Assembly: GCF_015354315.1 (NCBI RefSeq)
Contig: NZ_JADKYY010000002.1
Location: 186,001-250,000 of the forward strand
Source of the DNA: Planobacterium oryzisoli
GTDB taxonomy: Bacteria > Bacteroidota > Bacteroidia > Flavobacteriales > Weeksellaceae
Direction: 5' to 3'
Length of the DNA: 64,000 nt
The stretch's first letter is position 1. The number at the start of each line of letters is the position of its first letter. Below, in pieces: positions 7,788 to 35,600 of the stretch. A program made the translations under genes and the position numbers. The notes below the pieces were generated by a model, which saw nothing but the letters and a program-made list of their open reading frames with translations, was not told where the DNA came from and ran no database searches.

Positions 7788-8402
7788 TTAAATCTTTCTC
7801 TCTTTCACATAATCTACATCCTTATTTAATTTCATTCGCACTTTTTTTTCTTCTTCATATTGGTCAATTAAAACCTTCTGTAAAGGGCAATGCTTCCAAT
7901 TTCCTATCTATTTTGGATATATTCTCTGCGGTTGCTTGAGATTGCTTTTCTATCTCCGTCACATTCACGCCTTTCTCAGATAATTTTAAAATTGTATTAT
8001 GGACTGCCGCTTTGGCTAAATCTATACTTTTTTGGTATGATGCTAATTGGGATTGCCAATAATTCGAGTTTACGTCTTCGCTACTTTTTGAATATCCTAA
8101 AATACGGTCATAGGCCTTTTCCGCCTTATGAACTCCGGACTGTACCTTTGTGAAATCTTCGTATTTTCTTAAAACAAAAGCACTGTCTGCAAGAAATTTA
8201 TTCTTCTCACTTTCTAATTTTTTTTCAGCATTTCAATTTCAATTTTCGCTCTTGTTTCGGGATTGGTGATGATCGAAGTTTTCAGTTCCTGTGTACTGAT
8301 ATCCGAAAAGTCTAAAACATCTGCTCCTTTTTTCATCGCTTCTAAATATCTCGCCTGTTTTGCCTGCAAACTATTCAGAAAAAGATAATTTTTCTTACTC
8401 AA
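7788..8402 (-). pseudogene. C-terminal remnant of a large conjugative-element protein (N-6 DNA methylase/helicase-like)
   Basis: Reading the minus strand from 8,402 gives a coiled, charged sequence (AKQARYLEAMKKGADVLDFS, then ISTQELKTSIITNPETRAK). It continues in a second frame after a run of eight T near 8,220 (LRKYEDFTKVQSGVHKAEKA) and in a third after about 7,880, ending at a TAA at 7,788-7,790. Two frameshifts and loss of everything upstream of 8,402 make this a pseudogene. I recognise the LDFSDISTQEL style as the tail of the giant methylase/helicase proteins carried by Bacteroidetes ICEs, but this is from memory and moderate in confidence. Its head abuts the integrase remnant, a deletion junction. 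Confidence 0.5.
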
Positions 8403-8976
8403 CCCGAGCTAAGTCAATTGAAGAATTTTGACATTCCAAAAGAGAAAAAATATTTAGAAAGGGTGAGAGATGTTTTTATGTTCCAATGTATTACCGGTTT
8501 GAGATATTCGGACGTAGAAAAATTAAAAACGAAGCGACATTAAAGATAATTTCATCGAAATAATAACGGTAAAAACTTCTGATAGTTTGATTATTGAACT
8601 TAATGACCACAGCAGAGCCATACTTGAAAAATATAAAGATGAAGTGTATGAAAAATCTAAAGCTTTGCCAGTGATTAGCAATCAAAAAATGAATGAATAT
8701 TTACGGGAACTAATGGAAATGGCGGAAATTGATGAACCTATTCGCGAAACCTACTATAAGGGTAATGAAAAATTTGATGAAGTTTCCCCAAAATACGCAC
8801 TTATGAGTTCTCACGCGGGCAGACGAACTTTTATCTGCAGCGCTTTGGCTTTAGGAATTCCACCGCAGGTCGTGATGAAGTGGACTGGTCACAGTGATTA
8901 TGCTGCGATGAAGCCCTATATTGATATTGCAGATCAAACAAAAATAAATGCTATGGCAAAGTTTAATATGTTGTAA
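8403..8976 (+). pseudogene. Tyrosine recombinase/integrase, C-terminal catalytic part, truncated and frameshifted
   Basis: The sequence encodes the catalytic domain of a Bacteroidetes-type phage/ICE integrase. Box I reads VFMFQCITGLRYSD (catalytic Arg), followed by a strand with VKTSDSLIIEL (likely catalytic Lys), then SSHAGRRTFI (H-x-x-R), WTGHSDY (His) and MKPYIDIA (nucleophilic Tyr). The N-terminal SAM-like DNA-binding domain is absent. A one-base insertion in the five-A run at 8,525-8,529 breaks the frame between box I and the beta sheet; removing one A restores LKRSDIKDNFIE. All catalytic residues survive but the protein cannot be made whole. It was probably the enzyme that inserted this island. 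Confidence 0.82.
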
Positions 8977-9679: not shown

Positions 9680-10063
9680 ATGAAGAATATTCTTTTAGGA
9701 ATACTGGCTTCTGTAGCAGTGTTCCTCGTTTCCTGCACCAATTCAAAAGCAGAAACTACCCAAATTACCAATGCACAGTTCAAGACCGGCGATATTGTCC
9801 CCCACGACCAGGTCTGTATGGTAAACAACGCCTACATGGGCAAAAAGCAGCTCGAAGTAAAGCATGACGGCAAAACCTACTACGGTTGCTGTGAAAACTG
9901 CAAACTCAGAATCCCACAGGAAGAAAATGCCCGCATGGCATACGATCCCATATCTCATAAACTCATCGATAAAGCAACCGCAATTATTGCGATCTCTGAT
10001 AAAAATGATAATGTCGTGTACTTCGAAAATAAAGCAAACTACGAAGCCTTTTTTAAAAAATAA
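9680..10063 (+). CDS. Metal-binding lipoprotein with a TRASH/YHS-like Cys motif
   Basis: A 127-residue predicted lipoprotein (lipobox LVSC, Cys18-19). After the signal peptide there is a small domain with VCMVNN and YGCCENCK, then an alternating beta region ending YFENKANYEAFFKK. The Cys spacing and the closing FENKANYEAF pattern resemble TRASH/YHS metallochaperone domains. It is the first gene of the contiguous cus-like operon (25 bases before the DUF3347 gene), so I infer periplasmic Cu/Ag handling. The family assignment comes from the motif pattern only. Confidence 0.65.
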   Translation: MKNILLGILASVAVFLVSCTNSKAETTQITNAQFKTGDIVPHDQVCMVNNAYMGKKQLEVKHDGKTYYGCCENCKLRIPQEENARMAYDPISHKLIDKATAIIAISDKNDNVVYFENKANYEAFFKK

Positions 10064-10088
10064 TCAATAACCTTTAACTGATAAAATA

Positions 10089-10712
10089 ATGAAAACAATA
10101 CTATTCAGCCTTTTGGCAATCGGCACTTTTGCATTCACTTCTTGTAAGGAAAACAAAGAACAGAAAATAACCACTGGTACAACCATGCAGCATGACATGA
10201 GTACAATGTCCGACAGTTCAGCGATTGGCGGTATGGCAATGGATGCTAAGGTAACCGTTACCGACGCAAAAAAAACTTCCGCTGACCTTACGGAGCTTTA
10301 TTCTCATTACACCCACCTTACATTCGCGTTGTCCGGTGATGATGATAAGGAAGCGGTAAGTGCAGCAAAAGGAATCTTGGCGTCCTTTCCCAAAATAGAC
10401 AAAATCGGTTTTTCCGCTGAACAGAAGAAAGAATTTGCGGATTTGGAATCAAGCATCAGTGAACACGCCGAGCACATTGCAGATAACGCTGGGAATATTG
10501 ATCATCAGCGGGAACATCTGGATTTAATGAGTGCCGATTTTTACGATCTGCTGAAAGATTTCGGAACTCCAAAACCGGTGTACAAAGTATTTTGTCCAAT
10601 GTATAACGATAACAAAGGCGCTTTTTGGCTTAGCGATTCACGTGAGGTGAAGAATCCTTATTACGGCAAAGAAATGCAGTCATGTGGCGAGGTTCAGGAA
10701 GAAATTAAGTAA
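10089..10712 (+). CDS. DUF3347 domain lipoprotein
   Basis: A 207-residue lipoprotein (lipobox FTSC, residue ~19) with a short Met/His-rich segment (MQHDMSTMSDSSAIGGMAM) typical of copper proteins. It is followed by a DUF3347 four-helix domain at about residues 65-205. Signature stretches are ISEHAEHIADNAGNIDHQRE, YKVFCPMYNDNKGAFWLSD and NPYYGKEMQSCGEV. DUF3347 domains commonly accompany or are fused to CusB-type adaptors in Bacteroidetes. It lies 14 bases before the permease gene, in the same operon. Confidence 0.85.
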   Translation: MKTILFSLLAIGTFAFTSCKENKEQKITTGTTMQHDMSTMSDSSAIGGMAMDAKVTVTDAKKTSADLTELYSHYTHLTFALSGDDDKEAVSAAKGILASFPKIDKIGFSAEQKKEFADLESSISEHAEHIADNAGNIDHQREHLDLMSADFYDLLKDFGTPKPVYKVFCPMYNDNKGAFWLSDSREVKNPYYGKEMQSCGEVQEEIK

Positions 10713-10726
10713 AATCGTACAGAACC

Positions 10727-12010
10727 ATGATTCAAAATTTAATCAAACTGTCCCTCCGCAACAGGTATTTCGTGTTGCTGATAGCAATCGGCCTTTTTAT
10801 CTGGGGTATTTTTGCGGTAAGGGACAATCCCATCGATGCCATTCCGGATCTGAGTGAGAACCAGGTCATCGTTTTTACGGAGTGGATGGGCAGAAGTCCC
10901 CAGATTATTGAAGATCAGGTGACTTTCCCTCTGGTAAGCAACCTTCAGGGAATTCCGAAAATTAAGAACATCCGCGCCTCTTCCATGTTTGGGATGAGCT
11001 TCGTGTATGTTATTTTCGAAGATAACGTGGACATTTACTGGGCCAGAACCCGGGTGCTGGAACGGCTCAACTATGCCCAACGCCTACTCCCGCAAGACGT
11101 AACGCCTACGCTCGGACCGGATGGTACCGGCGTTGGTCACGTCTTCTGGTACCATTTCGATGCACCTAAAATGGATTTGGGAGACCAGCGCGCCCTCCAG
11201 GACTGGTATGTGAAATTTGCTCTGCAGACGGTTCCCGGTGTGGCGGAAGTAGCCTCCTTTGGCGGCTTCGAAAAACAGTACCAACTCATTGTAGATCCTG
11301 TAAAACTCCAGTACTATAACGTCTCTCTGATGGATGTCATGAACAAAGTGAAAGCCAACAATAATGATGTGGGCGGACGTAAATTTGAGATGGCCGATAT
11401 GGCCTATGTCATTCGCGGCCTGGGTTATATCAAGAACGTAGCCGATATCGAGGAAATTGCTTTGGGAAATTACAACGGAATTCCTGTGCGGGTTAAAGAC
11501 ATTGGTTCTGTACAGATGGGTGGTGATTTGCGTCTGGGTATTTTTGATGCAGACGGTGAAGGCGAAGTCGTGGGCGGTATCGTAGTGGCACGGTATGGCG
11601 AAAATGCAGATAAGGTCATCAACGATGTGAAAGAGAAAATGAAGGACGTTGAAAAAGGACTCCCTGAAGGTGTCACCTTCAAGACATCGTACGACCGCAG
11701 TACCCTTATTGAAGGGGCAATAGACAATATCAAAACCAAGCTGATCGAAGAGATCATCGTGGTCGCTATCATTGTTATTCTGTTCCTGTTCCACTGGCGA
11801 AGTGCATTCAGTATCATTATTCAGATTCCGGTAACCATTGCCATCAGCTTTATTCTGCTCAATGCGTTTGGACTTTCATCCAATATTATGTCGCTTACCG
11901 GAATTGCACTGGCAATTGGGGTGATCGTTGATAACGGAATTATCATGTCCGAAAATGCCTATAAAAATCTCTCCGATTGGCAGAACCATCAACAAAATAA
12001 AAACCCATAA
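10727..12010 (+). CDS. cusA: CusA-like Cu/Ag RND permease, N-terminal half
   Basis: This 427-residue ORF holds TM1, the first porter domain and TM2-TM4 of a heavy-metal RND permease. It ends shortly after TM4 (IALAIGVIVDNGIIMSENAY), just where the cytoplasmic loop to TM5 begins. The single Asp in TM4 with a small-residue context is of the monovalent-cation (CusA, HME4) kind, unlike the DFG-DG type of the second pump at 32,699. The rest of the protein is encoded by the next ORF after a 2-base gap and in another frame. Either a split two-chain permease or a one-base deletion near 12,006-12,008; adding one A after CCC would join them as ...NPITMKTNW.... Neighbouring operon genes are intact. Confidence 0.75.
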   Translation: MIQNLIKLSLRNRYFVLLIAIGLFIWGIFAVRDNPIDAIPDLSENQVIVFTEWMGRSPQIIEDQVTFPLVSNLQGIPKIKNIRASSMFGMSFVYVIFEDNVDIYWARTRVLERLNYAQRLLPQDVTPTLGPDGTGVGHVFWYHFDAPKMDLGDQRALQDWYVKFALQTVPGVAEVASFGGFEKQYQLIVDPVKLQYYNVSLMDVMNKVKANNNDVGGRKFEMADMAYVIRGLGYIKNVADIEEIALGNYNGIPVRVKDIGSVQMGGDLRLGIFDADGEGEVVGGIVVARYGENADKVINDVKEKMKDVEKGLPEGVTFKTSYDRSTLIEGAIDNIKTKLIEEIIVVAIIVILFLFHWRSAFSIIIQIPVTIAISFILLNAFGLSSNIMSLTGIALAIGVIVDNGIIMSENAYKNLSDWQNHQQNKNP

Positions 12011-12012
12011 CA

Positions 12013-13971
12013 ATGAAAACCAACTGGTTAAATAATATATTCAGAAAGAAAGATAAGGAGAAAGACAGTTACGTTAAAATTCCCGAAGACATTCGGTTGA
12101 AGATTATCGAAAAATCATCCTTACAGGTATCCAGAGGCGTATTTTTTTCTACGGTGATTATCGTGGTTTCCTTTCTCCCCGTATTTATGTTGACAGGTCA
12201 GGAAGGTAAACTTTTTCACCCGTTAGCGTACACCAAAACTTTTATCCTGATCGTTGATGCGATCTTGGTACTTACCCTTGCGCCGGTACTTATCTCCTTT
12301 TTTATGAAGGGAAAGTTTAAAGACGATAATAAAAACCCAATAAACAGTGGCTTGCAGCGGGTGTACGAACCCATCATTCGCTGGTGCATGGAATGGAAAA
12401 AAACAACGCTTGGCATTAATATTCTTGCTCTTTTGGTCAGCATCCCTTTAATTATGAATCTGGGACGCGAGTTTATGCCACCTTTGGATGAAGGATCTTT
12501 GCTCTTTATGCCGGTCACTTTGCCTGATATTTCGAACTCCGAAGCTAAAAGATTACTGCAGGTGCAGGATAAAATCATTAAAGGAGTTCCGGAGGTGGAT
12601 CATGTCCTCGGAAAAGCCGGAAGAGCAAACACGGCGACAGATAATTCACCCATTTCAATGATTGAAACCATCATTCTGTTGAAACCTCAGGACGAATGGC
12701 GCGACGGCCTTACAAAAGACGATCTTATTAATGAATTGAATGCTAAACTGCAGATTCCGGGCGTAACTAATGGCTGGACCATGCCGATTTCCAACCGGAT
12801 CAATATGCTTTCAACAGGGATTAGAACGGATGTGGGCGTAAAAGTGTACGGACAGAACCTGGACAGTATCGCGGTCCTTTCCGAAAAAATAAAAAAGGAA
12901 CTCACCGGTATTGAAGGAATAAAAGACATGTACGTAGAACCCATTACCGGCGGAAAATATGTGGATATTGAAGTGAAACGCGAAGAAATAGGAAGATACG
13001 GCCTAAGTGTGGATGATGTAAATGCCGTCGTGGAAAGTGCGCTCGGCGGAATGAAACTCACCACCACCGTGGAAGGCCGACAGCGCTTTTCGGTAAATGC
13101 CAGATACGGCCAGGATTTCAGAAATAATGTGGAATCTCTGAGAAGACTGCCCATGCAGACGATGGAATTTGGTTCCATTCCGCTAAGTGCAGTGGCTGAC
13201 ATTCGTCTTACAGAAGGACCACCAATGATCAATTCTGAAAATGCAATGTTGCGTGGATCTGTTCTATTCAACGTACGCGACCGGGATTTAGGCAGTACCG
13301 TAAAAGAAGCCCAGGAAAAACTCAATAACATGGTGAACAAAATGCCAAAAGGTTATTTCGTGGAATGGAGCGGTCAGTACGAAAACCTGATTCGCGGAGA
13401 GCAGACTTTAAAAATGATTATGCCCCTCGTATTAATCGTGATCTTTATTTCCATGTACTTTGCATTCAATTCCTACCGTGAAGCTTTCTTTAATCTCATC
13501 AGTATTCCTTTTGCCCTAATCGGGGGTGTCTTTATGATTTCGATTTGGGGGGTGAACCTTTCCGTAGCCGTAGCAGTTGGTTTTATTGCGTTGTTCGGAC
13601 TTGCGGTAGAAACGGGAATTGTGATGGTCATTTACCTGAACGATGCCATGATTCAACTTACCACGAAGAACGGCAACTCACGGGAGACCATTACCAATGA
13701 AGAACTTCGGGAGTATGTCATCAATGGAGCAGCGAAAAGATTAAGACCTAAAATTATGACAGTGTGTGTTACCCTTTTCGGACTGGTTCCCATCCTGTGG
13801 AGTCACGGCGTTGGAAGTGATATGATGAAACCAATCGTATTACCCATGGTGGGTGGCGTTTTTACTTCCGCAATTCACATTCTGTTGGTAACCCCCATTA
13901 TCTTTTACATGCAGAAAGAATGGGAGCTGAATAAACTGGGGAAAATTGACGTCCTGGACGCTTCCCATTAA
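12013..13971 (+). CDS. cusA: CusA-like Cu/Ag RND permease, C-terminal part
   Basis: A 652-residue ORF that carries a charged cytoplasmic loop (residues ~10-40), TM5-TM6, the TM7-anchored second porter domain and TM8-TM12. The RINMLSTGI segment and the phrase FMPPLDEGSLLFMP are standard for CusA/CzcA proteins. The closing helices (TM10-12) are complete. It begins with ATG two bases after the stop of the N-terminal part, a spacing that permits translational coupling. Added together the two parts give 1079 residues, about normal for CusA. It is therefore half of a pump that is functional only if both chains assemble or if the break is a base-call artefact. Confidence 0.75.
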   Translation: MKTNWLNNIFRKKDKEKDSYVKIPEDIRLKIIEKSSLQVSRGVFFSTVIIVVSFLPVFMLTGQEGKLFHPLAYTKTFILIVDAILVLTLAPVLISFFMKGKFKDDNKNPINSGLQRVYEPIIRWCMEWKKTTLGINILALLVSIPLIMNLGREFMPPLDEGSLLFMPVTLPDISNSEAKRLLQVQDKIIKGVPEVDHVLGKAGRANTATDNSPISMIETIILLKPQDEWRDGLTKDDLINELNAKLQIPGVTNGWTMPISNRINMLSTGIRTDVGVKVYGQNLDSIAVLSEKIKKELTGIEGIKDMYVEPITGGKYVDIEVKREEIGRYGLSVDDVNAVVESALGGMKLTTTVEGRQRFSVNARYGQDFRNNVESLRRLPMQTMEFGSIPLSAVADIRLTEGPPMINSENAMLRGSVLFNVRDRDLGSTVKEAQEKLNNMVNKMPKGYFVEWSGQYENLIRGEQTLKMIMPLVLIVIFISMYFAFNSYREAFFNLISIPFALIGGVFMISIWGVNLSVAVAVGFIALFGLAVETGIVMVIYLNDAMIQLTTKNGNSRETITNEELREYVINGAAKRLRPKIMTVCVTLFGLVPILWSHGVGSDMMKPIVLPMVGGVFTSAIHILLVTPIIFYMQKEWELNKLGKIDVLDASH

Positions 13972-13988
13972 TCCCTAATTATTACAAA

Positions 13989-15236
13989 ATGAAAAAATTC
14001 ATAATAACAGGAGTACTTACCTTGCTTTATACCACCAGTTATGCTCAGCGGATGCCGTTAACGGCAGTAATGGACAGTATTGCAGCCAACAATCCTGTGG
14101 TTAAAATGTATAATGCGGAAGTCCGGTCAATGGACGCTGCGGCCAAAGGCGCAAGAAGCTGGATGCCCCCAACCGTTGGAGCCGGGTTGTTTATGACACC
14201 CTATAATCCAAAACTCTGGCAACGCGACGGCGATATGCTCGGTATGGGCTCAGTAGCAGTTTCTGTGGAGCAGATGTTTCCCAACACAAGGAAACTTGAT
14301 GCAAACGAAAATCTGATGAAGGCGATGTCTTCCGTAGAAAAGGAAAAACTCTATGCCGCCCTCAATGAAAACTTTCAGGATGCGAAAAAACTGTATTACA
14401 GTTCAATCGTCCTGGATAAAAAGCTGCAGGTCGTAAAGGAAAACGAAAAGATGCTGGATTTCATGATCAGAAACGCCGAGATCCGGTACAAAAACGGGCT
14501 TTCCAAAATATCTGCATATTACAAAGCCAAAGCCGCCCTCGGAAGCTCCAAAAACATGCAGCTCATGTACGAGAATGACCTCCGCGTCAACCGGATCCGG
14601 TTGAATGCCCTCATGGGAAGAGACCCGCTCGCGCCACTGGAGATTGAACCGGAATACAACCTGAATGATTATTCTCTCGAGACTTTTGGTCAGGATCTAT
14701 TTTATCAGAACAGAAGTGATCTCCGCGGCATCGACCGGGAAATCAATATTGCCAAACTCAAACAGGATCTGGAAAAGCAGAATTTAAAGCCGGAATTTGG
14801 CGTAAAGTTCGAAAACATGTTTGGTTTTGGCGGCCAGCCCATGCAGTTTTCACTCATGCTGATGGCAAAGCTACCGTTTGTTTCCTGGGCTTCAGGCATG
14901 AATAAAGCCAATATTGAAAGTCTCAAACTGAAAGAAGAGGCCTTGCAGGCACAGAAAGAAATGATGGTGAACGAATACAGTGGAATGGCCTACGGTATGC
15001 GCAACGAACTGGACCTGAATAAAAATCAGCTCAAACTCTATGAAGACACCATTATTCCGGCCTTAAAAAACAACTACAAATCCATGCAGTTAGGCTACGA
15101 GCAGAATACGGAAGAACTCTTCATGTTGTACGATGCCTGGGAACAGCTGAATATGACCCAATTGGAATATTTCGAGATCCTGACCAAAGCACTGCAGACG
15201 CAAACTGAAATTGACCGCTTAATTGAAAGAAGATGA
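13989..15236 (+). CDS. cusC: TolC family outer-membrane protein, CusC-like
   Basis: A 415-residue outer-membrane channel of the Cu/Ag pump. It has a signal peptide (ending TTSYAQR, residue ~20), OEP helices throughout and a Met-containing N-terminal half (MPLTAVMDS, WMPPTVGAGLFMTPY). It starts 17 bases after the permease part and overlaps the next adaptor gene by four bases (ATGA, 15,233-15,236), which indicates translational coupling. It is somewhat shorter than drug-type TolC but normal for Bacteroidetes metal pumps. Confidence 0.88.
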   Translation: MKKFIITGVLTLLYTTSYAQRMPLTAVMDSIAANNPVVKMYNAEVRSMDAAAKGARSWMPPTVGAGLFMTPYNPKLWQRDGDMLGMGSVAVSVEQMFPNTRKLDANENLMKAMSSVEKEKLYAALNENFQDAKKLYYSSIVLDKKLQVVKENEKMLDFMIRNAEIRYKNGLSKISAYYKAKAALGSSKNMQLMYENDLRVNRIRLNALMGRDPLAPLEIEPEYNLNDYSLETFGQDLFYQNRSDLRGIDREINIAKLKQDLEKQNLKPEFGVKFENMFGFGGQPMQFSLMLMAKLPFVSWASGMNKANIESLKLKEEALQAQKEMMVNEYSGMAYGMRNELDLNKNQLKLYEDTIIPALKNNYKSMQLGYEQNTEELFMLYDAWEQLNMTQLEYFEILTKALQTQTEIDRLIERR

Positions 15237-16483
15237 GAAAAATTATAATATTCACTATGCTTTTATTTGGTTTGACGGCGTGTGACAAAGTTAAGTTCTG
15301 GGAAGATAAGCACTCGGCAGAAGCTGCAATGCATACTTATACCTGTCCGATGCACCCGGAAGTGATCTCAGACAAACCCGGTCAGTGTCCCAAATGTGGG
15401 ATGGATTTGGTCCTGAAAGATGCCCCTGAAAAAAAGGAAGAGGGGATTAAACTCGACGATCTGCTGAAACCAACCAATGAATTTGTGATCTCGGAATTGC
15501 CGGTCGTAAAATTAAAAAAGGAAAATATTCCCACCACCGTTGATGCTTTAGGGACGGTAGAATACGATACTCGACAGATTGGCAGTATTTCCTCACGCGT
15601 TGCGGGCCGTATCGAGAAACTCTATGTGCGGTATAAATACCAGAAAGTGTCCAAAGGGCAGCGTATTTTAGATATATACAGCCCGGAACTTTTAACCGCA
15701 CAGCAAAACCTGCTCTTCGCTATTAAAAATGACCGCTCAAACAAAACAATGATTGATGCTTCACGCCAGAAACTCCTTCTTTTGGGAATGCCGGCTTCAC
15801 AGATTCAGAAAGTCATCCAGCGAGGGAAACCTGATCTCACAGTTCCGGTTTTCAGTAATTACAGCGGACACATTCAGCAGGCAGGATCGGCCGGAAGCAT
15901 GGGGTCATCACCACAATCTGCACCCGCAATGGCTTCAAATACGGCAGTCACCGCTGAACTACCCCTAAAAGAGGGAATGTACCTCCAGAAAGGACAGAAT
16001 ATTTTCAGTGTCTACAATCCCAACAGAACCTGGGCCCAGATCAATATTTTTTCTGAAGACATTGCACTGGTCAGCAAAGGACAGTCAGTCATGATCATCC
16101 CGGAAGCCAATCCGGATAACCGCTTCAAAGGAACCATCGGTTTTATTGAGCCGTTTTTCAGGCAGGGCAGCAAAACCGTAACGGCGCGCGTCTATTTTGA
16201 TAATTCCACCGCAAAAATTCCTGTCGGAAGTCTGGTTAAAGCGGAGATTATGAGCCACAACAGAATGGCAGACTGGCTGCCGAAATCAGCGGTGGTTTCT
16301 TTAGGGATTGATAAAATCGCGTTCAAAAAAGTAGAAGGCGGTTTTATTGCCCATAAAGTTGTTACCGGCGCGGTGGTAGGCGATAAAATTCAGATCGTCA
16401 GTGGTTTGCTTCCTGAAGATGGAGTTGCCGAAAATGCACAGTACCTGATGGACAGCGAAAGTTTCATAAAAATTAACAGATAA
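15233..16483 (+). CDS. cusB: CusB-like periplasmic adaptor with N-terminal heavy-metal-binding domain
   Basis: A 416-residue lipoprotein (lipobox LTAC, Cys17) that bridges CusA and CusC. Residues ~36-62 form a heavy-metal-binding domain, [20 protein letters not shown], a motif that binds metal through its Cys, His and Met residues. The adaptor core follows: beta-barrel, lipoyl halves (ISSRVAGRIEKLYVRYKYQK) and a membrane-proximal domain. A Ser/Gly/Ala/Met-rich insert near residues 215-240 lies between the lipoyl half and the barrel. It overlaps cusC by four bases and precedes a second, diverged adaptor by 11 bases. Confidence 0.88.
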   Translation: MRKIIIFTMLLFGLTACDKVKFWEDKHSAEAAMHTYTCPMHPEVISDKPGQCPKCGMDLVLKDAPEKKEEGIKLDDLLKPTNEFVISELPVVKLKKENIPTTVDALGTVEYDTRQIGSISSRVAGRIEKLYVRYKYQKVSKGQRILDIYSPELLTAQQNLLFAIKNDRSNKTMIDASRQKLLLLGMPASQIQKVIQRGKPDLTVPVFSNYSGHIQQAGSAGSMGSSPQSAPAMASNTAVTAELPLKEGMYLQKGQNIFSVYNPNRTWAQINIFSEDIALVSKGQSVMIIPEANPDNRFKGTIGFIEPFFRQGSKTVTARVYFDNSTAKIPVGSLVKAEIMSHNRMADWLPKSAVVSLGIDKIAFKKVEGGFIAHKVVTGAVVGDKIQIVSGLLPEDGVAENAQYLMDSESFIKINR

Positions 16484-16494
16484 AAATTGATAAG

Positions 16495-17700
16495 ATGAAA
16501 TTCAATATTTTAATGCTTGCCTTGCTGGTTTTTCTTTACTCCTGTAAAAAGGAGGAAGATCCTCATGCCGGCCACGATATCTACTACACCTGTTCCATGC
16601 ATCCACAGGTGGTATCTGACAAACCGGGAAAATGTCCTATTTGTCACATGGATTTGGTGCCGGTGGAGAAGAAAAAGAATGCGGATCCAAATGAAATTAT
16701 CCTGAATGATGAGCAGATAAAACTGGGGAATATAGAAACAGTCGCACTATCTGATGGGTCTATGGCCGACAAACTTACGCTGACTGGAACACTCAATTTT
16801 AATCAGTACCAAATGCAGGCAGTAAGTTCCCGAGTAATGGGCAGAGTTGAACGGTTGTATTATAAAAACATTGGCGATTTTGTTCCGAAGGGGGCGCCGT
16901 TGGTCGATATTTACAGTGAAGAACTCAATAATGCAAAGCAGGAATATTTGCTGGCATTGGAAAGACGCAAGCTGTTCGTCGGCAATACTTCCATTGATTT
17001 TGACCAGCTACTCCAAAGTTCCCGAAACAAGCTTTATTTATGGGGAATGTCCGAAGGCCAGATCAAACAGCTGGAAAGATCAGGAAAAGCCACACCTACC
17101 ACCACCGTGTTCAGCAATGCAGCCGGTTACATCACCGATCTGCGCATTGCGGAAGGTGATTATCTTGCTGAAGGTGGCACCATCGTAAATTTGGCAGATC
17201 TTTCATCACTTTGGGCGGAGGCGCAGATGTATTCGTCCCAAATGGCTCTCCTTCAGAAAGACAGCAAGGTCACCGTATATATTCCCGATCTGGATAATTT
17301 GAAGATTAATGGGAAGATTGATTTTACAAATCCGGAAATCAGCGCTTCAAGCAGGATAAATCTGGTCCGCGTTTCCGTCCCCAACCAAGGAAATCTGCTG
17401 AAACCCGGTATGCCGGTATATGTTCTTGTGGAAAACAAATCCCGTGATGGTCTTTCAATGCCTGTGGATGCGGTAATCAGGGATGGCAAATCTTCCACGG
17501 TGTGGGTGAAAACCGCGAAGAACACCTTCGTCAACAGAATGGTGGAAACGGGTCTCGAATATGAAGACAGAATAGAAATCACATCAGGAATTAAGGCGGG
17601 AGACGAAGTAGTGGTCTCCGGGGCCTACCTTCTGAACAGCGAATATATATTTAAGAAAGGGGCAGATCCCATGGCGGGTCACGATATGAGCACAATGTAA
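16495..17700 (+). CDS. Second CusB-like adaptor with heavy-metal-binding domain
   Basis: A 401-residue lipoprotein (lipobox LYSC) paralogous to the preceding adaptor. The metal-binding domain reads [20 protein letters not shown] followed by HMDLVP, so its last Cys-x-Met pair is varied to HM. The core has the usual adaptor order (AVSSRVMGRVERLYYKNIGD lipoyl half, barrel, membrane-proximal). The C-terminus ends in a Met/His tail (DPMAGHDMSTM). Having two adaptors for one permease suggests a hetero-oligomeric adaptor ring or substrate transfer between them (inference). It ends one base before the next gene. Confidence 0.87.
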   Translation: MKFNILMLALLVFLYSCKKEEDPHAGHDIYYTCSMHPQVVSDKPGKCPICHMDLVPVEKKKNADPNEIILNDEQIKLGNIETVALSDGSMADKLTLTGTLNFNQYQMQAVSSRVMGRVERLYYKNIGDFVPKGAPLVDIYSEELNNAKQEYLLALERRKLFVGNTSIDFDQLLQSSRNKLYLWGMSEGQIKQLERSGKATPTTTVFSNAAGYITDLRIAEGDYLAEGGTIVNLADLSSLWAEAQMYSSQMALLQKDSKVTVYIPDLDNLKINGKIDFTNPEISASSRINLVRVSVPNQGNLLKPGMPVYVLVENKSRDGLSMPVDAVIRDGKSSTVWVKTAKNTFVNRMVETGLEYEDRIEITSGIKAGDEVVVSGAYLLNSEYIFKKGADPMAGHDMSTM

Positions 17701-17701
17701 T

Positions 17702-18163
17702 ATGAGAAAATTGAATATGATAGGCTGGCTGGCGGTGCTAGTGGTGGCTATTGTTTTAGTCATTCAGTTCATACCGGTGGAGCGTAATGTCTCCACCGTT
17801 GCGCCAGGTCAAAGTTTTGAAAAAACTGAAAAGGTGCCCGCCAACGTGGCTGCAATCCTTAAAGTTTCCTGCTATGACTGTCATTCAAATAATACCCGTT
17901 ATCCCTGGTATTCGGAATTACAGCCGGGCGCGTGGTTCATGGCCCGGCATATTAAAAAAGGCAAAGAAGAACTCAATTTTGATGAGTTCAATAATTATTC
18001 AAAAAGACGCAAAAAAGCAAAAATAAGAAGCATCATCAGCCAGATTGAAAAAGATGAAATGCCTTTAAAATCTTACCGCATGATGCACGGAAACGCCAGA
18101 TTATCAGCAGATAAAAAAAAAGAACTGTTAGATTTTTTTCGTGACAACGAATATAGTAAGTAA
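17702..18163 (+). CDS. Haem-binding-domain (Haem_bd) cytochrome-like protein
   Basis: A 153-residue protein with an N-terminal membrane anchor (residues 7-24) and one c-type haem motif, CYDCH (C57, C60, H61), in the context SNNTRYPWYSELQPGAWFM. That context is characteristic of the Bacteroidetes haem-binding-domain family. The C-terminal KKKELLDFFRDNE stretch is also usual. It is the last gene of the cus-like operon with a one-base gap. A redox role in copper handling in the periplasm is plausible but inferred only from context. Confidence 0.82.
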   Translation: MRKLNMIGWLAVLVVAIVLVIQFIPVERNVSTVAPGQSFEKTEKVPANVAAILKVSCYDCHSNNTRYPWYSELQPGAWFMARHIKKGKEELNFDEFNNYSKRRKKAKIRSIISQIEKDEMPLKSYRMMHGNARLSADKKKELLDFFRDNEYSK

Positions 18164-18281
18164 CGCAGAACATCAGAAATTACGCTCGACCTTGGTCTTT
18201 AGAGTATCAGAAATGGCCGTTTAAAATAAAAAAGGATCGGAAAATACCATGCTGTAGAATCAACAAATTAATAACAACGTG

Positions 18282-18851
18282 ATGAAATTAAATATTAAAA
18301 ATATGGTTTGCAGCCGATGTCTCAAAGTGCTTAGGCAAGAGCTTGAACAACTAGGAATTAATGTTTCATCAATTGAACTCGGGGTATTGGTAATCGACGA
18401 GATGGCTGGTAATCATACTGAAATCATGGCGAAAATTGAAAGCGTTCTCCATACCAATAAATTTGAAATAATCCATAGTCCAGAGTAAGTGCTCGTCGAA
18501 AAAATTAAACATTCTTTGCTTTGTAAAATAGAAGAGCCCCCTCTCGATTCCACGGTAAACCAATCTCAAATTTTAAGCACGGAGTTCAACCACGAATATA
18601 AGTCACTGAGCAAGTTGTTCTCACACTTTGAAAATACAACGCTGGAAAAATATTTTATTAAATTAAAAATTGAGAGAATAAAACAACTTATTCAACTCAG
18701 GCAGTACACCTTTTCAGAAATAGGGCATCTCCTGGATTACAGCAGCGTCAACCATCTGTCGAGACAGTTTAAATAGATTACCGGAGAGAGCATGACAGAG
18801 TATAAAAATGCTGAACTAGCCAATCGAAGATCCTATGATGAAATTAGTTAA
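18282..18851 (+). pseudogene. HMA-type sensor / AraC family regulator with two in-frame stop codons
   Basis: Read through, this is a 189-codon protein. A ferredoxin-like metal-sensing N-terminus with MVCSRCLKVLRQELEQL (CxxC at residues ~9-12) is followed by an AraC DNA-binding region (SLSKLFSHFENTTLEKYFIK, YTFSEIGHLLDYSSVNHLSR, then QFK-ITGESMTEYK). TAA at 18,486-18,488 cuts the protein between the domains and TAG at 18,774-18,776 cuts the last helix-turn-helix. The reading frame is kept throughout, so both are simple nonsense changes, not indels. The domain order is that of flavobacterial regulators next to copper genes. It was probably the regulator of one of the adjacent copper operons. 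Confidence 0.78.
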
Positions 18852-19184
18852 CCTTAGAACTTAGGCGTACGAAATTATAAATAGGAAATAGTTGCGAAAT
18901 AGAAACGGCAATCACAGAGACGTTTGCGCAACTCTCGATAAACTTCAGGTATAGTTTTGATGTTACTTGGCCTTTTTTTCAAAGCAAAATTATACAGAAA
19001 CTAACGAAAATTATGAAGAACATCCGTTTAAGAAATTTGTACTTTTACAGTAGTAATTACAACCAGCTCGCTTTCAAAAAGCTATTTTATTGCAACACTA
19101 GTTTGGCCAAGTAAGGCTCACAGAACGTATTTTAAAACGGATAGTCGGAAAGTAACAATATATAAAAGAATAAAATCAAACAAA
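18852..19184. other. Non-coding, decayed stretch
   Basis: No ORF, RNA gene or repeat could be supported here. The composition is AT-rich with many stops in all frames, consistent with decay between two broken genes. Confidence 0.5.
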
Positions 19185-19422
19185 ATGAAACAACAGGAAT
19201 GTCCTGCGAAGGCTGCGTTAAAAATGTCGAAAAAGCTTGAAAGAAATTGATGGCGTACAGAATGTAAAAGCGAGTCTGCATCCACCACGCGCAGTTATTG
19301 AAGCAGAGAAATCGATTAATACAGCGCAGTTAACGCAAGCCTTGGCGAAAGTAGGTTATAGTATTGCCGGCGCTTCCGTAGATGAGAATTTAAAAAAGTC
19401 TGGTGGCTCCTGTTGCTGTTGA
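19185..19422 (+). pseudogene. HMA-domain copper chaperone-like protein, frameshifted
   Basis: Two frames together encode a small heavy-metal-associated protein. GMSCEGCVKNVEK (19,196-19,234) carries the MxCxxC metal site. After a one-base loss in GCT(T)TG near 19,235-19,239 the other frame continues LKEIDGVQNVKASLHPPRA and ends in a Cys-rich tail (GGSCCC). The expected beta-alpha-beta-beta-alpha-beta length of ~75 residues is met when the frames are joined. The start is uncertain because the ATG at 19,185 is in yet another frame, so a second indel is likely. Confidence 0.7.
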
Positions 19423-19652
19423 AAAGTATGAACTGGGCGGGCAAGTATAACGTTAGTACGATGTGAACGATAACGGTAGAAATGCTCCGCTGAAAACTAA
19501 GTGAAAGAAGCAAATAAATTTTTTAAAAAAAATCAAAGTAGCCAGCAATAGCTTGCCTGATCAAACGCACTTATGATTGCGACAGGATCAGCTCAGGAAC
19601 TGCATATTTATTGAAAAAACTAACCTATTTATTAACATAAAAACCAACAATT

Positions 19653-19994
19653 ATGACAGGTTATCACACGTACCAAAGTTGTATTGAAGCATGTTTAAAA
19701 TGTGCTGCAATATGTAATCACTGTGCTTCATCATGCACTGAGGAAGAAGATGTAAAAATGATGGCGAGATGCATTCAATTAGACATGGAATGCGCAGCGA
19801 TCTGCTATGCCTCAGCACAGTTAATGAGCCTCGGCAGCGACAAAGCAAAAGAAATTTGCCGCATTTGTGCCGACATCTGTGAAGCATGTGCTGCAGAATG
19901 TGAAAAACATGCACAACATGGAATGGATCATTGCCGTGAATGTGCAGAAGCTTGTAGAAAATGCGCCGAAGAATGCCGGAAAATGGCAGCGTAA
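19653..19994 (+). CDS. Four-helix bundle copper-binding protein (Csp/DUF326-like)
   Basis: A 113-residue protein with 19 cysteines spaced as C-x2-C and C-x3-C along four predicted helices (CIEACLKCAAICNHC, CAAICYASA, CRICADICEACAAECEKH, CRECAEACRKC). This is the pattern of copper storage proteins, in which the Cys line the core of the bundle and hold many Cu(I). It has no signal peptide, so it resembles the cytosolic Csp3-type form. It is intact although the genes on both sides are broken, which suggests it is under selection. Confidence 0.88.
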   Translation: MTGYHTYQSCIEACLKCAAICNHCASSCTEEEDVKMMARCIQLDMECAAICYASAQLMSLGSDKAKEICRICADICEACAAECEKHAQHGMDHCRECAEACRKCAEECRKMAA

Positions 19995-20069: not shown

Positions 20070-21160
20070 ACGAAAAAATTTTTTACCCCGACATTGGTTG
20101 TCATAATGACAATGCTATTTGCTATGGTCAGCAGTTGCGGCAATAACGATAATAGCAATACCAATAGTAGTAAAACTGACAAACCACCTTCATTGCCATT
20201 GGCTAAAGGATATGTTGCCAACGAAGCCGGAGGCAGTGTTTCAGTTATAGATCTTCAGGATAGCTTAAAAACCACAAGCATTGACTTCAGTGATAGCGCC
20301 GGAACTATGTTTATGGCCCATAATGTGCAGGTGCCCCCCAATGGAAAATCTGTTTGGGTGGCGGCAGCAGGTATGGACAGCAGTAAAACAAATTACTTAA
20401 TAGTTATTGACCCAAACAGCGGTACAATAAAAGAGCGTGTGCTGTTAGGTAAAGATCTACACGTGGCCCATGTGGTTTTAGACGATCAATCAAAGAATGC
20501 ATTTGTAACCGCAGGTGAAACGAATGAAGGCATACAAGTAGATGCAACGACCTATCAAGTGGTACGAAATTTAATTTAGGAGAAAAACATGCACCTCATG
20601 GCTTACGCTACGCTAATGGCAAATTGTATGTAGCCAATATGGACGGAAAAAGTATGTCTGTCATTACTATAGCTGATGGTAAAGTAACTGATATCCCTCT
20701 TGGTGGTATAGCTCCACAGGTAGCCGTTACCCGTGACGATAAATTTGTTTTCGTCTCTTTGTACGATACAAAAGAGGTGATACAGTATGACCTTAAAAAT
20801 GGCCAAATAATAAGAATACCATTACCTGGCACCGCTCAGGGCCCTATTCAGTTGTACGCAACCCCGGATAGTAAATTACTTTATGTAGCAGACCAGGGTG
20901 AACTCTTGGGCAGGCCGGTTTCAAACGAAGTTTATGTAATAGACATACCAAACGCAAAAGTGATAAGTACCATTAAAGTTGGTAAGAAGGCTCACGGTGT
21001 AGTAGTAAGCAACGATGGTAAATCAGTTTTTGTAACAAATACTATAGATAATACCGTTTCTGTGATTGATGTGCCAAGTCAAAGAGTGATCCACACAATC
21101 CCGGTTGGCAAAGGCCCTAATGGAATAAGCTATTGGTTTGAAACTGGTGGAATGCCATAA
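20070..21160 (+). pseudogene. YVTN/YncE-type beta-propeller lipoprotein, frameshifted, start codon lost
   Basis: Joined frames give a ~363-residue secreted propeller. Blade repeats include GYVANEAGGSVSVIDLQDS, LYVANMDGKSMSVITIADGK and VFVTNTIDNTVSVIDVPSQR. The break is a missing base at about 20,565-20,566 (GTA-CG-AAA), after which the frame changes. The signal peptide extends upstream of the first Met: codons 20,070 onward read ACG-KKFFTPTLVVIMTM with a lipobox at SSC, so the original start ATG seems to have mutated to ACG. It could still start at ATG 20,106, but the frameshift would cut it after blade 2-3. Confidence 0.75.
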
Positions 21161-29079: not shown

Positions 29080-31992
29080 ATGAAATATATATTTTCGCTT
29101 TTTCTATTTATGGCAATGTCCATAAACAGTTATTCACAGAGCACCAAAACCGTGTACACCTGCCCGATGCATCCGCAGGTCGTGAAATCAGCACCCGGTA
29201 ACTGCCCCATTTGCGGTATGACCTTGGTGAAGAAAACCGTTACTGAGAAAAAAACGGCGGCCAAATCCGCGCCCGCTCCTAAAAAGGCCACCGTAGTTAA
29301 AAAAACTACGGGTAAGAAACCTGAAATTACCGCTGCAAAAACAAAGACGGTAACGGAAGTTAAAAAACCGGTGATGCCAAAGACTAAAGCAGTACCGAAA
29401 GACCCAGCGAGCATCAAAACGCCGGAACATTCAACACCTGCTCCGCATCAGCATGAAGCAGCGCAAAAGATGTACACTTGTCCGATGCACCCCGAGGTGG
29501 TTTCGGACAAACCCGGAAAGTGTCCCAAGTGCGGTATGAATCTGGTCCCTCAGAAGGAAAGCGGCCGGCATCAGGCTACCGGCAAAACCCCGGAACATCA
29601 AACTTCAGATGCGCATCAGCATGAAGAAGCGCAAAAGATGTACACCTGCCCGATGCATCCCGAGGTGATATCGAACAAACCCGGAAAGTGTCCCAAGTGC
29701 GGTATGAATCTGGTCCTTCAAGAAAAAAAAGAAGATCATTCTGCACACGGAAACATGCAGATACATGGTGAACACAAAATGGTCATGCCCATGCCTGAAA
29801 AAAACCTAAAAGGCGGGCGCAAAGTGACCTACCATCTTTATGTGAAAGACACCCTGGTAAATTTCGCGGGCAAACAGAAACGCGCCATTGCCGTAAACGG
29901 GCAGATTCCGATGCCAAAGCTGGAGTTTTATGAGGGCGATACGGCGGAAGTGATTGTCCATAATTTAATGGACGAAGAAACTTCTCTGCACTGGCACGGT
30001 CTTCATCTTCCAAATAAAGAAGATGGGGTTCCCTGGCTTACCCAGAAACCCATTCCACCACATTCAACCTACACGTATTCGTTTCCGATCATCCAAAACG
30101 GAACCCACTGGTATCACTCACATACTGGCCTGCAGGAGCAGATTGGAATGTATGGGATGATGATTCTGAAAAAACGTCCCGAAGATCCTACTTTCCGGCC
30201 GGGGATTGATGATTTGCCCACAGAGCACATTATCCTGAGCGAGTGGACAAACCTGAACCCCAATAATGTTCAGCGGATGCTTCGCAACGCCAATGACTGG
30301 TTCGCAATAAAAAAAGGCAGTACTCAAAGTTATGCAGAAGCCATAAAAGAGGGACACTTTAAGACAAAACTCACCAACGAATGGAAGCGGATGCTTGCCA
30401 TGGACGTGAGTGACATTTATTATGACGCCTTTCTGATTAACGGTAAAACAGAAAGCCAGCTCGCAGGATACAAAGCCGGTGACAAAGTGCGGCTTCAAAT
30501 CGCCAACGGCGGTGCTTCCTCCTATTTTTGGCTCAATTATGCAGGAGGAAAAATTAAAGTAGTGGCCAGTGATGGATTGGACATTGAACCGGTAGAAGTG
30601 GACCGTCTTATTCTGGCAGTTTCTGAAACAGTGGATATCGTAGTGGAAATTCCTGAAAAAAACACCTCCTACGAACTCCTTGTTACACCTGAAGACCGCA
30701 CAAAATCTGCGTCAGTGTTTATTGGAGAAGGAGCTAAGAAATCCCATGATCCATTACCCAAACTCAAATACTTTGAAGGGATGAAGATGATGAACGACAT
30801 GATGAAGATGAATGGTGACATGAAAGATATGGGCATGAAGATGAGTTATCAGACGATGGATATGAATCAGGTGATGTATCCTGAAATTAGTGCTGAAAAT
30901 AATGCAGCAATGCCGATGGACAAGATGGACAACAACGATGCGCAAATGGATCACTCACAGCATCAGATGCCTGCTTCCGGGATTACCACATTGAATTATG
31001 GGATGATGAAATCGCCTTATGACACTTCACTCCCGAAAGACAGTCCCGTGCGCGAGCTCAAGTTTACCCTTACGGGAAACATGAACCGCTACGTTTGGAG
31101 CATGGACGATAGAGTCCTGGCAGAATCGGACAAAATATTGGTAAAAAAAGGGGAAATTCTCCGCATTACCCTTTTCAATAACTCAATGATGCGTCACCCG
31201 ATGCACCTGCACGGTTTTGATTTTCGGGTACTCAACAAAAATGGCCTTCAGGCACCCCTCAAAAATGTGTTGGATATTATGCCGATGGAAACTAATGTCA
31301 TCGAATTTGAAGCTAAAACTGATGGGGACTGGTTTTTCCACTGTCACATCCTCTATCACATGATGGCGGGGATGAACCGTGTTTTTGCTGTTGGTGATTA
31401 TCAGAATCCTTTGCTTCCCGATAAAGCTTCAGCTTACAAAAAGCTTCAGCGCGAAAGTAACATGTGGCACCTGATGGCCGAAAACGATTTCGCCACCAAT
31501 GGTAACGACGGGATGGCGAGAATTTCAAATGCCCGCTGGGAATTGGGAACAGAATGGCGTTTAGGTTACAATTCCCATCACGGCTACGAGGTGGAAACCC
31601 AACTCGGCAGGTATGTGGACCGTATGCAGTGGCTGAAACCATTTATCGGATTTAACTATCGTTATAGAAAGATTGACAGGAATAATATTGAAAAAAACCT
31701 TTTTGGACAGGCATCTACTAAAGATGAAAGAAAAACTTTCAGCGCTGGTATCATGTATAAACTCCCGATGTTGGTGGACCTGCAGGCAGAAATATTTACA
31801 GACGGAATTGTAAGGTTCCAGCTGACACGTGAAGACATTCCGTTGACTGCGCGTTTGCGTGGGGCATTCATGGTCAATACCGACAAAGAATATATGGCAG
31901 GTCTTAAATATATCGTCACAAAAAATATCGGAATCTCAACCCACTACGACAGCGATATGAGCTGGGGTGCAGGGATTACTTTGAATTATTAA
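29080..31992 (+). CDS. Multicopper oxidase (CopA/PcoA-like) with three heavy-metal-binding domains and a CopB-like barrel fused
   Basis: A 970-residue periplasmic/outer-membrane fusion protein that would oxidise Cu(I). Order: signal peptide (1-20); three metal-binding domains of YTCPMHP...CPxCGM type at ~26-51, 131-156 and 187-212, separated by Lys/Ala/Pro- and His-rich linkers; cupredoxin domains with HWHGLH (304-309), HWYHSH (343-348), HPMHLHG (706-712) and [12 protein letters not shown] (754-765), the full set of type 1/2/3 copper ligands; a Met-rich insert (~565-610, e.g. [20 protein letters not shown]); and from ~795 a beta-strand domain ([17 protein letters not shown] ... GAGITLNY) of the CopB/PcoB outer-membrane kind. 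A fused CopA-CopB is longer than the ~600-residue norm. A terminator follows. Confidence 0.9.
29416..29751 (+). repeat. 168-bp in-frame tandem duplication of a metal-binding module
   Basis: Units start at 29,416 (AAAACGCCGGAACAT) and 29,584 (AAAACCCCGGAACAT). They are nearly identical over their first ~137 bases and then diverge. Each unit encodes 56 residues: a linker with HQHE and one YTCPMHPEV...CPKCGMNLV domain. The duplication adds the third metal-binding domain to the oxidase. Confidence 0.88.
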
Positions 31993-32698: not shown

Positions 32699-35600
32699 AT
32701 GCTATATAAAATTATACAGTTTAGTGTAAAGAATAAGCTCATTATTGGGCTCATGACTTTCGCACTAATCATCTGGGGCGTGTATAGTGCTACTAAACTC
32801 CCATTGGATGCTGTACCTGACATCACCAATAATCAGGTTCAGATCATTACCAGTACACCCACATTAGCCGCACAGGAAACAGAACAGTTGGTCACCTATC
32901 CAATTGAACAGAGCCTCGCCAACATACCGGGAATTACCGAAATGAGGTCTATTTCACGATTTGGATTGTCCGTGGTTACTGTAGTCTTTGATGAAAGCGT
33001 GGATATTTACTTTGCCCGTCAACTGATTACTGAAAAACTGAAAGAGGCCGAGGAAAACATTCCACAAGGTATCGGTACGCCAGAAATGTCTCCGGTATCC
33101 ACAGGCTTAGGAGAGATTTATCAATATGTTATTCACCCTAAAAAAGGGTCAGAAGACAAATACTCCGCTACTGATCTGCGAACCATGCAGGATTGGATTG
33201 TGGCCCGCCAACTCTACGGTACACCGGGCGTAGCTGAAATTAACAGTTTTGGCGGTAAACTTAAGCAGTACGAGGTGGCAATCAATCCGTACAGACTTAA
33301 AGCTATGAATGTGACTATTGCCGATATTTTCACAACCCTTCAGAAAAATAACGAAAATACAGGTGGTGCTTACATCGATAAAAAACCCAATGCATATTTT
33401 ATTCGGGGAATCGGCCTTATTTCATCTTTAGATGATATTTCCAATACCGTTATTAAAACTGTTAATGGCATTCCGGTACTTATAAAAGATGTTGCGGAAA
33501 CCCGAATTGGCAGTGCTGTCAGATATGGTGCATTAACTTATAATGGCGATAAAGAAGCGGTAGGTGGTATTGTTATGATGCTGAAAGGTGAAAATTCGGC
33601 GGAAGTGGTGAGCCGGGTTAAAGAAAAGATGAGCACCATACAAAAATCGCTGCCCCCGGATATTATCGTGGAACCTTTTCTGGATCGGACGAGTTTAGTT
33701 GACCGTGCTATACGCACCGTAGAAACAAATTTGGTAGAAGGAGCACTTATAGTCGTTCTTGTGCTGGTTCTGTTTCTTGGCAATTTTCGGGCAGGGCTTA
33801 TTGTTGCGTCGGCAATACCATTATCGCTTCTTTTTGCACTCGGGATGATGAACGTCTTTGGCGTTAGTGCAAATTTGATGAGTCTTGGTGCAATTGACTT
33901 TGGACTTATTGTAGATGGTGCTGTAATTATTGTTGAAGCTACCCTGCATTTTCTTGCTGTCCACCACCGTTCCCAGAAACTGTCTCAACATACGATGGAC
34001 CAGGCTGTACAGTCAAGTGCAAAAAAGATGATGAGTTCGGCGGTGTTCGGCCAGATCATTATCCTCATTGTATATCTCCCTATCCTTTCACTTCAGGGGA
34101 TTGAAGGTAAAATGTTCCGCCCAATGGCAGAGACGGTGTCTTTTGCAATTATAGGGGCATTAATACTCTCGCTGACCTATATACCAATGATGTCCGCCTT
34201 ATTTCTGTCTAAAAATATAAGCGCCAAAAAAACTTTCGCAGATAAAATAATGGCGAAGATCAGGAATTTTTATCTGCCCCTTTTGCAGAAAGCTATTGCA
34301 TTTAAATATGCAGTTGTTGGCGGTGCGGTGGCGCTGCTTGCGGTTTCGCTGTTTCTGTTTTCCCGGATGGGTGGTGAATTTATACCCCAATTGCAGGAAG
34401 GTGATTTTGCTGTGCACTGTATACTTCCACAAGGTACTTCTCTTTCTCAGAGCATTGAGACCTCTATGCAGGCAAGCCGTATTCTGAAATCTTTTTCTGA
34501 AGTGAACACAGTGGTGGGTAAAACCGGTAGTGCGGAAGTCCCCACTGACCCAATGCCGCCCGAAGCAACTGACCTTATCGTAACCCTAAAACCAAAAAAA
34601 GAGTGGAAGGACAGTGGTAAATCTTATGAGGATTTGAGCGCTGAGATGATGGAGAAGCTTGAAATGATTCCGGGAGTATTCTTCGAAGTATCCCAACCAA
34701 TACAGATGCGCTTCAACGAATTGATGACAGGGGTTCGGCAGGATGTAGCAGTTAAAATATTTGGTGAAAACATAGACACCCTTGCGAAACTGGCACCGGA
34801 AGTTGCCAAAATAGTACAAACAGTAGAAGGTGCCACCGAACCACAAATTGAACAGACGGTGGGTTTACCCCAGATAACCATTACTTACGACAGGGCCAGG
34901 CTGGCCTCTTATGGATTGAATATTGAGGATATAAACCATACAGTGAGCACCGCTTTTGCGGGCGAAACCGCTGGGGTGGTATTTGAGGACGAAAGAAAGT
35001 TTAATTTGGTCGCACGGCTCGACAGTGTTAACCGAAGTTCTATCGACGATGTGAGTAACCTGTTTATTCCAACTGAAAACGGCGTGCAAATCCCTCTTTC
35101 TCAGGTAGCAAAGGTTGAATATAAAGACGGACCGGCGCAAATCAGTCGTGAAGATGGCAAGCGCCGGATTGTTGTAGGCTTTAATGTAAAAGATAGAGAT
35201 GTAGAAAGTGTAGTAACTGAAATTCAGAGTAAACTTAATGATGCAAACATCTTACCCGCCGGCTATTACTTTACATATGGTGGAACATTCGAAAATTTGA
35301 AGCAGGCCTCTTCCCGATTGCAAATAGCAGTCCCGGTAGCCCTAGCTCTTATTTTTCTTTTACTGTACTTCACCTTCCGTAACTTCAAAGACGGCATACT
35401 TATTTTTACCGCAATACCAATGAGTGCTATCGGTGGGGTCTTTGCTCTGCTCATTAGGGATATGCCTTTCAGTATTTCAGCGGGAGTCGGCTTCATTGCG
35501 CTATTCGGGGTGGCAGTACTTAATGGAATTGTTTTAGTCAGCACCTTCAAGGATCTACAGAAATCCGGCGTTAACAATATTATCAGGAGAGTCATTCAGG

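Follow-up and report, generated by a model that had tools for sequence, protein, structure and literature searches.

A probable recent HMA-AraC regulator pseudogene on a copper-efflux island of Planobacterium oryzisoli

The broken regulator frame and its neighbours

The stretch of DNA analysed here (the window, 64,000 nucleotides) contains a frame for an HMA-AraC regulator on the forward strand at 18282..18851, which comprises 190 codons including the final normal TAA and is open except for two internal stops. The first stop, a TAA at codon 69 (18486..18488, forward strand), is located near the start of a predicted linker helix (residues 67-84), and the second, a TAG at codon 165 (18774..18776, forward strand), near the end of helix 156-167. 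The frame is thereby divided into a 68-codon HMA-like sensor with an MVCSRC (MxCxxC) loop (18282..18485, forward strand), recognised from sequence and predicted structure and a possible free peptide, and a 95-codon fragment of the AraC DNA-binding domain (18489..18773, forward strand), which reached 30.5 bits against the HTH_18 profile, below the cut-off of 33.6. Reading of the frame confirmed the two in-frame stops in an otherwise intact regulator that had been reported in the initial annotation. The first stop does fall between the sensor and the DNA-binding domain, shortly past the end of the HMA-like fold (residues 1-65). The second had been placed in the last DNA-binding helix; residue 165 indeed belongs to helix 156-167, but a further helix (171-181) follows and is also lost.

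Upstream of the regulator lies an intact copper efflux block (9680..18163, forward strand), encoding a small putative lipoprotein, a DUF3347 protein, a two-piece CusA, a TolC-like protein, two CusB-like proteins and a haem-binding protein. Three further genes follow the regulator on the same (forward) strand. A small HMA chaperone gene (HMA83, 19185..19422) is broken by two deletions, one of 13 bp close to its start and one of 1 bp near 19236; its product has 83 aa in most relatives, and neither a frameshift nor a stop was found in the gene at 17 other loci (from 15 genomes, two of which were fetched twice). An intact gene for a DUF326 protein (19653..19994) comes next, followed by a YncE-like beta-propeller gene (matched stretch 20072..21160) that has a 1-bp deletion near 20565 and does not keep the ATG start of its relative; this gene is often deleted, shortened or shifted in relatives as well. 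By comparison with the intact copy at locus L082, 3 of the 18 island genes are broken in the window, namely the regulator, HMA83 and YncE; the frames of CopB and the multicopper oxidase are also open, but each was its own reference in this 18-gene comparison. The earlier view that only nonsense changes and no indels are present thus applies to the regulator gene itself, but not to the neighbouring HMA83 and YncE genes, both of which carry deletions.

Two other candidate lesions were considered and rejected. The CusA-type pump is encoded by two frames (10727-12010 and 12013-13971) of 427 and 652 aa, the second ATG lying two bases past the first stop. Because the same two-piece gene with the same spacing was present in all six islands checked, the window included, it is probably a natural two-polypeptide RND pump and not the result of a frameshift. 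A 2-bp deletion at 18264, upstream of the regulator, was noted against 6/6 relatives and is common to three loci with intact regulators (L035, L038 and L041). Elsewhere in the window, a 168-bp tandem repeat of 1.8 copies (29415-29720) was observed inside a multicopper oxidase gene with three heavy-metal-binding (HMBD) stretches, and a 1442-aa protein (32699-37027) consists of an AcrB-type pump joined to an outer-membrane efflux domain.

Intact homologues and predicted fold

The 31 homologue loci collected for comparison, several of which represent one genome twice, correspond to 15 distinct sequences. Fourteen of these could be aligned to the window regulator without gaps over 570 bp at 90-98% DNA identity, and both stop positions are occupied by a sense codon in all 14; the fifteenth (L010) is more distant (71% DNA identity, two gaps) and has no internal stop. 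The comparison with intact homologues proposed in the initial annotation therefore revealed internal stops in none of the 15 distinct homologues. By using a read-through protein search, with X at the stops, near-identical intact genes were also found in Epilithonimonas, Kaistella and Chryseobacterium records, two MAGs and other family genomes. A broader survey of 149 genomes detected 141 HMA-AraC places, spread over 78 of them; three of the places were flagged as containing stops (a flag that is blind to frameshifts). In two of these three the flagged stop is simply where the gene normally ends, leaving one interrupted place among the 141, the window. In a wider search, at least three genes besides the window were flagged among the matches listed, with the stop at or near the C-terminal end in two and a true interruption in one (L095). 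The latter, from a genome of another family of the order, is an HMA-AraC gene interrupted by a single internal TAA.

The structure of the regulator protein was predicted by AlphaFold with a mean pLDDT of 87.8. In the model, residues 1-65 form a strand-helix-strand-strand-helix-strand fold, which is followed by the linker helix and then by an AraC double helix-turn-helix. VIA-align superposed residues 1-65 on CsoZ (Z 8.8, rmsd 2.0) and CopZ (Z 8.7, rmsd 1.9) over 62 residues, other ferredoxin-like proteins coming next at Z 7.5-7.7, so that the margin of CsoZ/CopZ is about one unit; residues 66-189 were aligned to AraC-type domains with Z up to 14.6. In a search with the sensor alone, a copper-binding protein was the best match (E 6.4e-3), and ACT-type folds scored almost as well. 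At the profile level, HTH_18 (PF12833) was recognised in the intact homologue L051 at 44.5 bits, above the curated cut-off of 33.6, and the Pfam HMA profile (PF00403) found no match in the sensor of either the window or L051. Since that profile is unmatched and other ferredoxin-like proteins are close in Z, the name HMA rests on the fold and the MxCxxC loop. Taken in this sense, the model supports an HMA-like sensor domain joined to an AraC DNA-binding domain.

The intact homologue shares the C-terminal double helix-turn-helix of AraC-family regulators, but has a short HMA-like N-terminal domain, whereas AraC itself has a sugar-binding arm; the window gene differs further in being broken. Other counterparts are the HMA-AraC regulators near copA in Flavobacteriales, which have the same combination of a KNMVCxRC sensor and an AraC domain, and P-type ATPase motifs were found downstream of the HMA-AraC gene in many of the relatives scanned. 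Unlike them, the island copy follows a cus-type efflux block and is interrupted by two stops. The sensor also has the fold and CxxC loop of the metallochaperones CopZ, CsoZ and Atx1, although its identity to CsoZ and CopZ is 10-13% and, in the intact gene, it belongs to a regulator and is not free. The target of the regulator is probably the copper genes, and the widespread HMA-AraC family is a likely copper regulator in Flavobacteriales. A study of the copper response in E. coli reportedly mentions an AraC-type regulator. No named member of the HMA-AraC family was found in the literature collection searched. Within a limited literature collection, no paper on HMA-AraC copper regulators was recognised, and none could be found by title on a pseudogene with constitutive copper expression or on a copper island with CusA in Chryseobacterium. 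The term AraC is absent from the main text of PMC11213822.

Origin of the island and native counterparts

The genome that contains the window is 2.1 Mb in size, in 20 contigs, and 99.98% complete. The stretch 18165-19650 has a match in 13 of 319 other family genomes at 94-96% identity over nearly its full length, and one further family genome matches it in two pieces (83% and 96%). No match was found in G001, the one same-genus genome searched, which is also without a close CusA (best 26%); absence from the genus is therefore to be read as absence from one other genome. The longer island blocks are mostly 93-98% identical, and in all four of the retrieved islands that extend past this point, homology begins at 8.7-9.0 kb. 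At this left edge of the island, a weak C-terminal remnant of the phage-integrase family was observed (8587-8976; 18 bits, below the cut-off of 27.1). On these grounds, the island looks mobile and recently acquired by horizontal transfer. No match to the region 17000-19700 was found in the plasmid collection searched.

Elsewhere in the host genome, an intact HMA-AraC paralogue (36% identity) is encoded directly upstream of copA; the native copA, which is intact as well, has two HMA domains and is followed by a 75-aa HMA frame. The same order of regulator, copA and small HMA frame is present in G001, where the small HMA protein scores below the Pfam cut-off. The regulator and the chaperone are the only two genes that are broken here but not in the relatives examined, and it is these two that have native counterparts; what speaks against redundancy is its dependence on a paralogue of 36% identity. 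In a second genomic paralogue of the regulator (L086:8728-9291), the metal loop is missing its first cysteine, and the frames after this paralogue look, on inspection by eye, like those of a response regulator and a sensor kinase.

Upstream comparison and a k-mer scan provided no convincing operator common to the native regulator and the island. One stretch ahead of the cus block (window 9512) agrees with L085:8109-8122 at 13/14 positions, and all 12 of 12 shuffles had more mismatches. It was treated as chance because L082 and L087 are different at this place and the native stretch falls within the 115-aa frame (7890-8237) that comes before. Another one-mismatch candidate was rejected as A/T-rich, and the k-mer scan of 28 upstream stretches returned mostly A/T-rich words.

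Apparent loss of constraint and its possible explanations

Compared with the 14 close sequences, the window regulator has six private substitutions, comprising two nonsense, four missense and no silent changes, all of them at codon 69 or later; private status is approximate here because the island looks mosaic. These changes bear out a knock-out of the regulator. The private changes pooled from the 14 close regulators were 15 silent and 10 missense (Fisher p = 0.018 against the window), and in 12 other islands the regulator showed 12 missense, 18 silent and no nonsense private changes. A stronger difference was obtained within the window: in 11 intact island genes (a pool that leaves out the regulator, HMA83 and YncE), 10 missense and 59 silent private changes were counted, against 6:0 in the regulator (Fisher p = 4e-5, or 2.5e-4 without CusA-N, for which the relatives number five). 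With a 13-locus set, the window regulator gained one private silent change, and p was 0.0017 against the 6 missense and 26 silent changes of six other genes. Among the other broken genes, HMA83 had two private missense calls, both bordering its deletion, and YncE had five missense and two silent changes. Under a neutral mutation model, 72% of the changes would be missense, 24% silent and 4% nonsense, and at least two nonsense changes among six would then arise with a chance of 0.025.

The proportion of six changing to no silent substitutions in the regulator, against 10:59 in its intact neighbours, suggests that the regulator has lost constraint and that the pumps keep it, and sequence comparison makes the former look unconstrained and the latter still constrained. 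Several observations speak against a reading of decay: the private changes in the regulator number only six, two of the four private missense residues are present in distant relatives, missense changes also outnumber silent ones (2 to 1) in two small intact genes of the window, and missense changes are plentiful in the intact genes of L036 (35 vs 47 silent) and L040 (14 vs 8). The knock-out had also been described as fresh, which holds only on the scale of about 2% silent-site divergence from the sampled islands, a rough estimate.

The explanation that we favour with considerable confidence is a recent HMA-AraC regulator pseudogene on an acquired copper-efflux island, dispensable through redundancy after transfer. 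The imported regulator and chaperone would have duplicated host functions, and selection on both duplicates may have lapsed after the transfer while the pumps stayed useful; the pumps could now depend on basal promoters or the native paralogue, derepression being another option. Transferred genes are reported to turn into pseudogenes more often than others (PMC522871), and pseudogenes are described as largely genome-specific (PMC2275313). As far as comparison of sequences can document it, the case is one of ordinary pseudogenisation after transfer. It may provide a clean example of how a metal-resistance island that has moved keeps its pumps under selection, and how the regulator and chaperone travelling with it decay where the host has its own.

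It is also conceivable, though rather unlikely, that the knock-out was itself selected. The regulator would then repress the island pumps, and its loss would be favoured since cells steadily exposed to copper would benefit from constitutive efflux. The intact and constrained pump genes beside a broken regulator and a broken chaperone agree with this scenario; however, AraC-family proteins are mostly activators, and the loss of the chaperone and YncE equally fits general dispensability. The constitutive expression of copper genes suggested initially would require the regulator to be a repressor, and an intact paralogue is present in the genome too.

A more improbable scenario is that the first stop, which splits the regulator almost exactly at the domain boundary, releases a free 68-residue CopZ-like HMA peptide that serves as a copper chaperone or buffer under selection and replaces the broken HMA83 of the same island. 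Its position just past the fold that resembles CsoZ and CopZ is consistent with such a role, as are the prediction that the isolated sensor (residues 1-68) keeps its fold (pLDDT 79, pTM 0.57) and the confinement of all six private changes to codon 69 or beyond. However, about two changes were expected in codons 1-68, and the chance of finding none of any kind is 0.07 (six changes, 204/567 bases), so that a constraint test on these codons is empty because no informative change is found there. Moreover, the genome has a small HMA frame at another location, and according to the stop flag none of the 140 other HMA-AraC places is cut in this way.

Least probable of all is a sequencing or assembly error, or read-through of the stops to a full-length protein, which the otherwise intact frame would permit, but six private changes, all amino-acid-changing and near a 13-bp deletion, would in our judgement be an unusual error pattern, and 29 of the 36 window frames picked end in TAA and four in TAG (three in TGA), so that both codons act as stops here.
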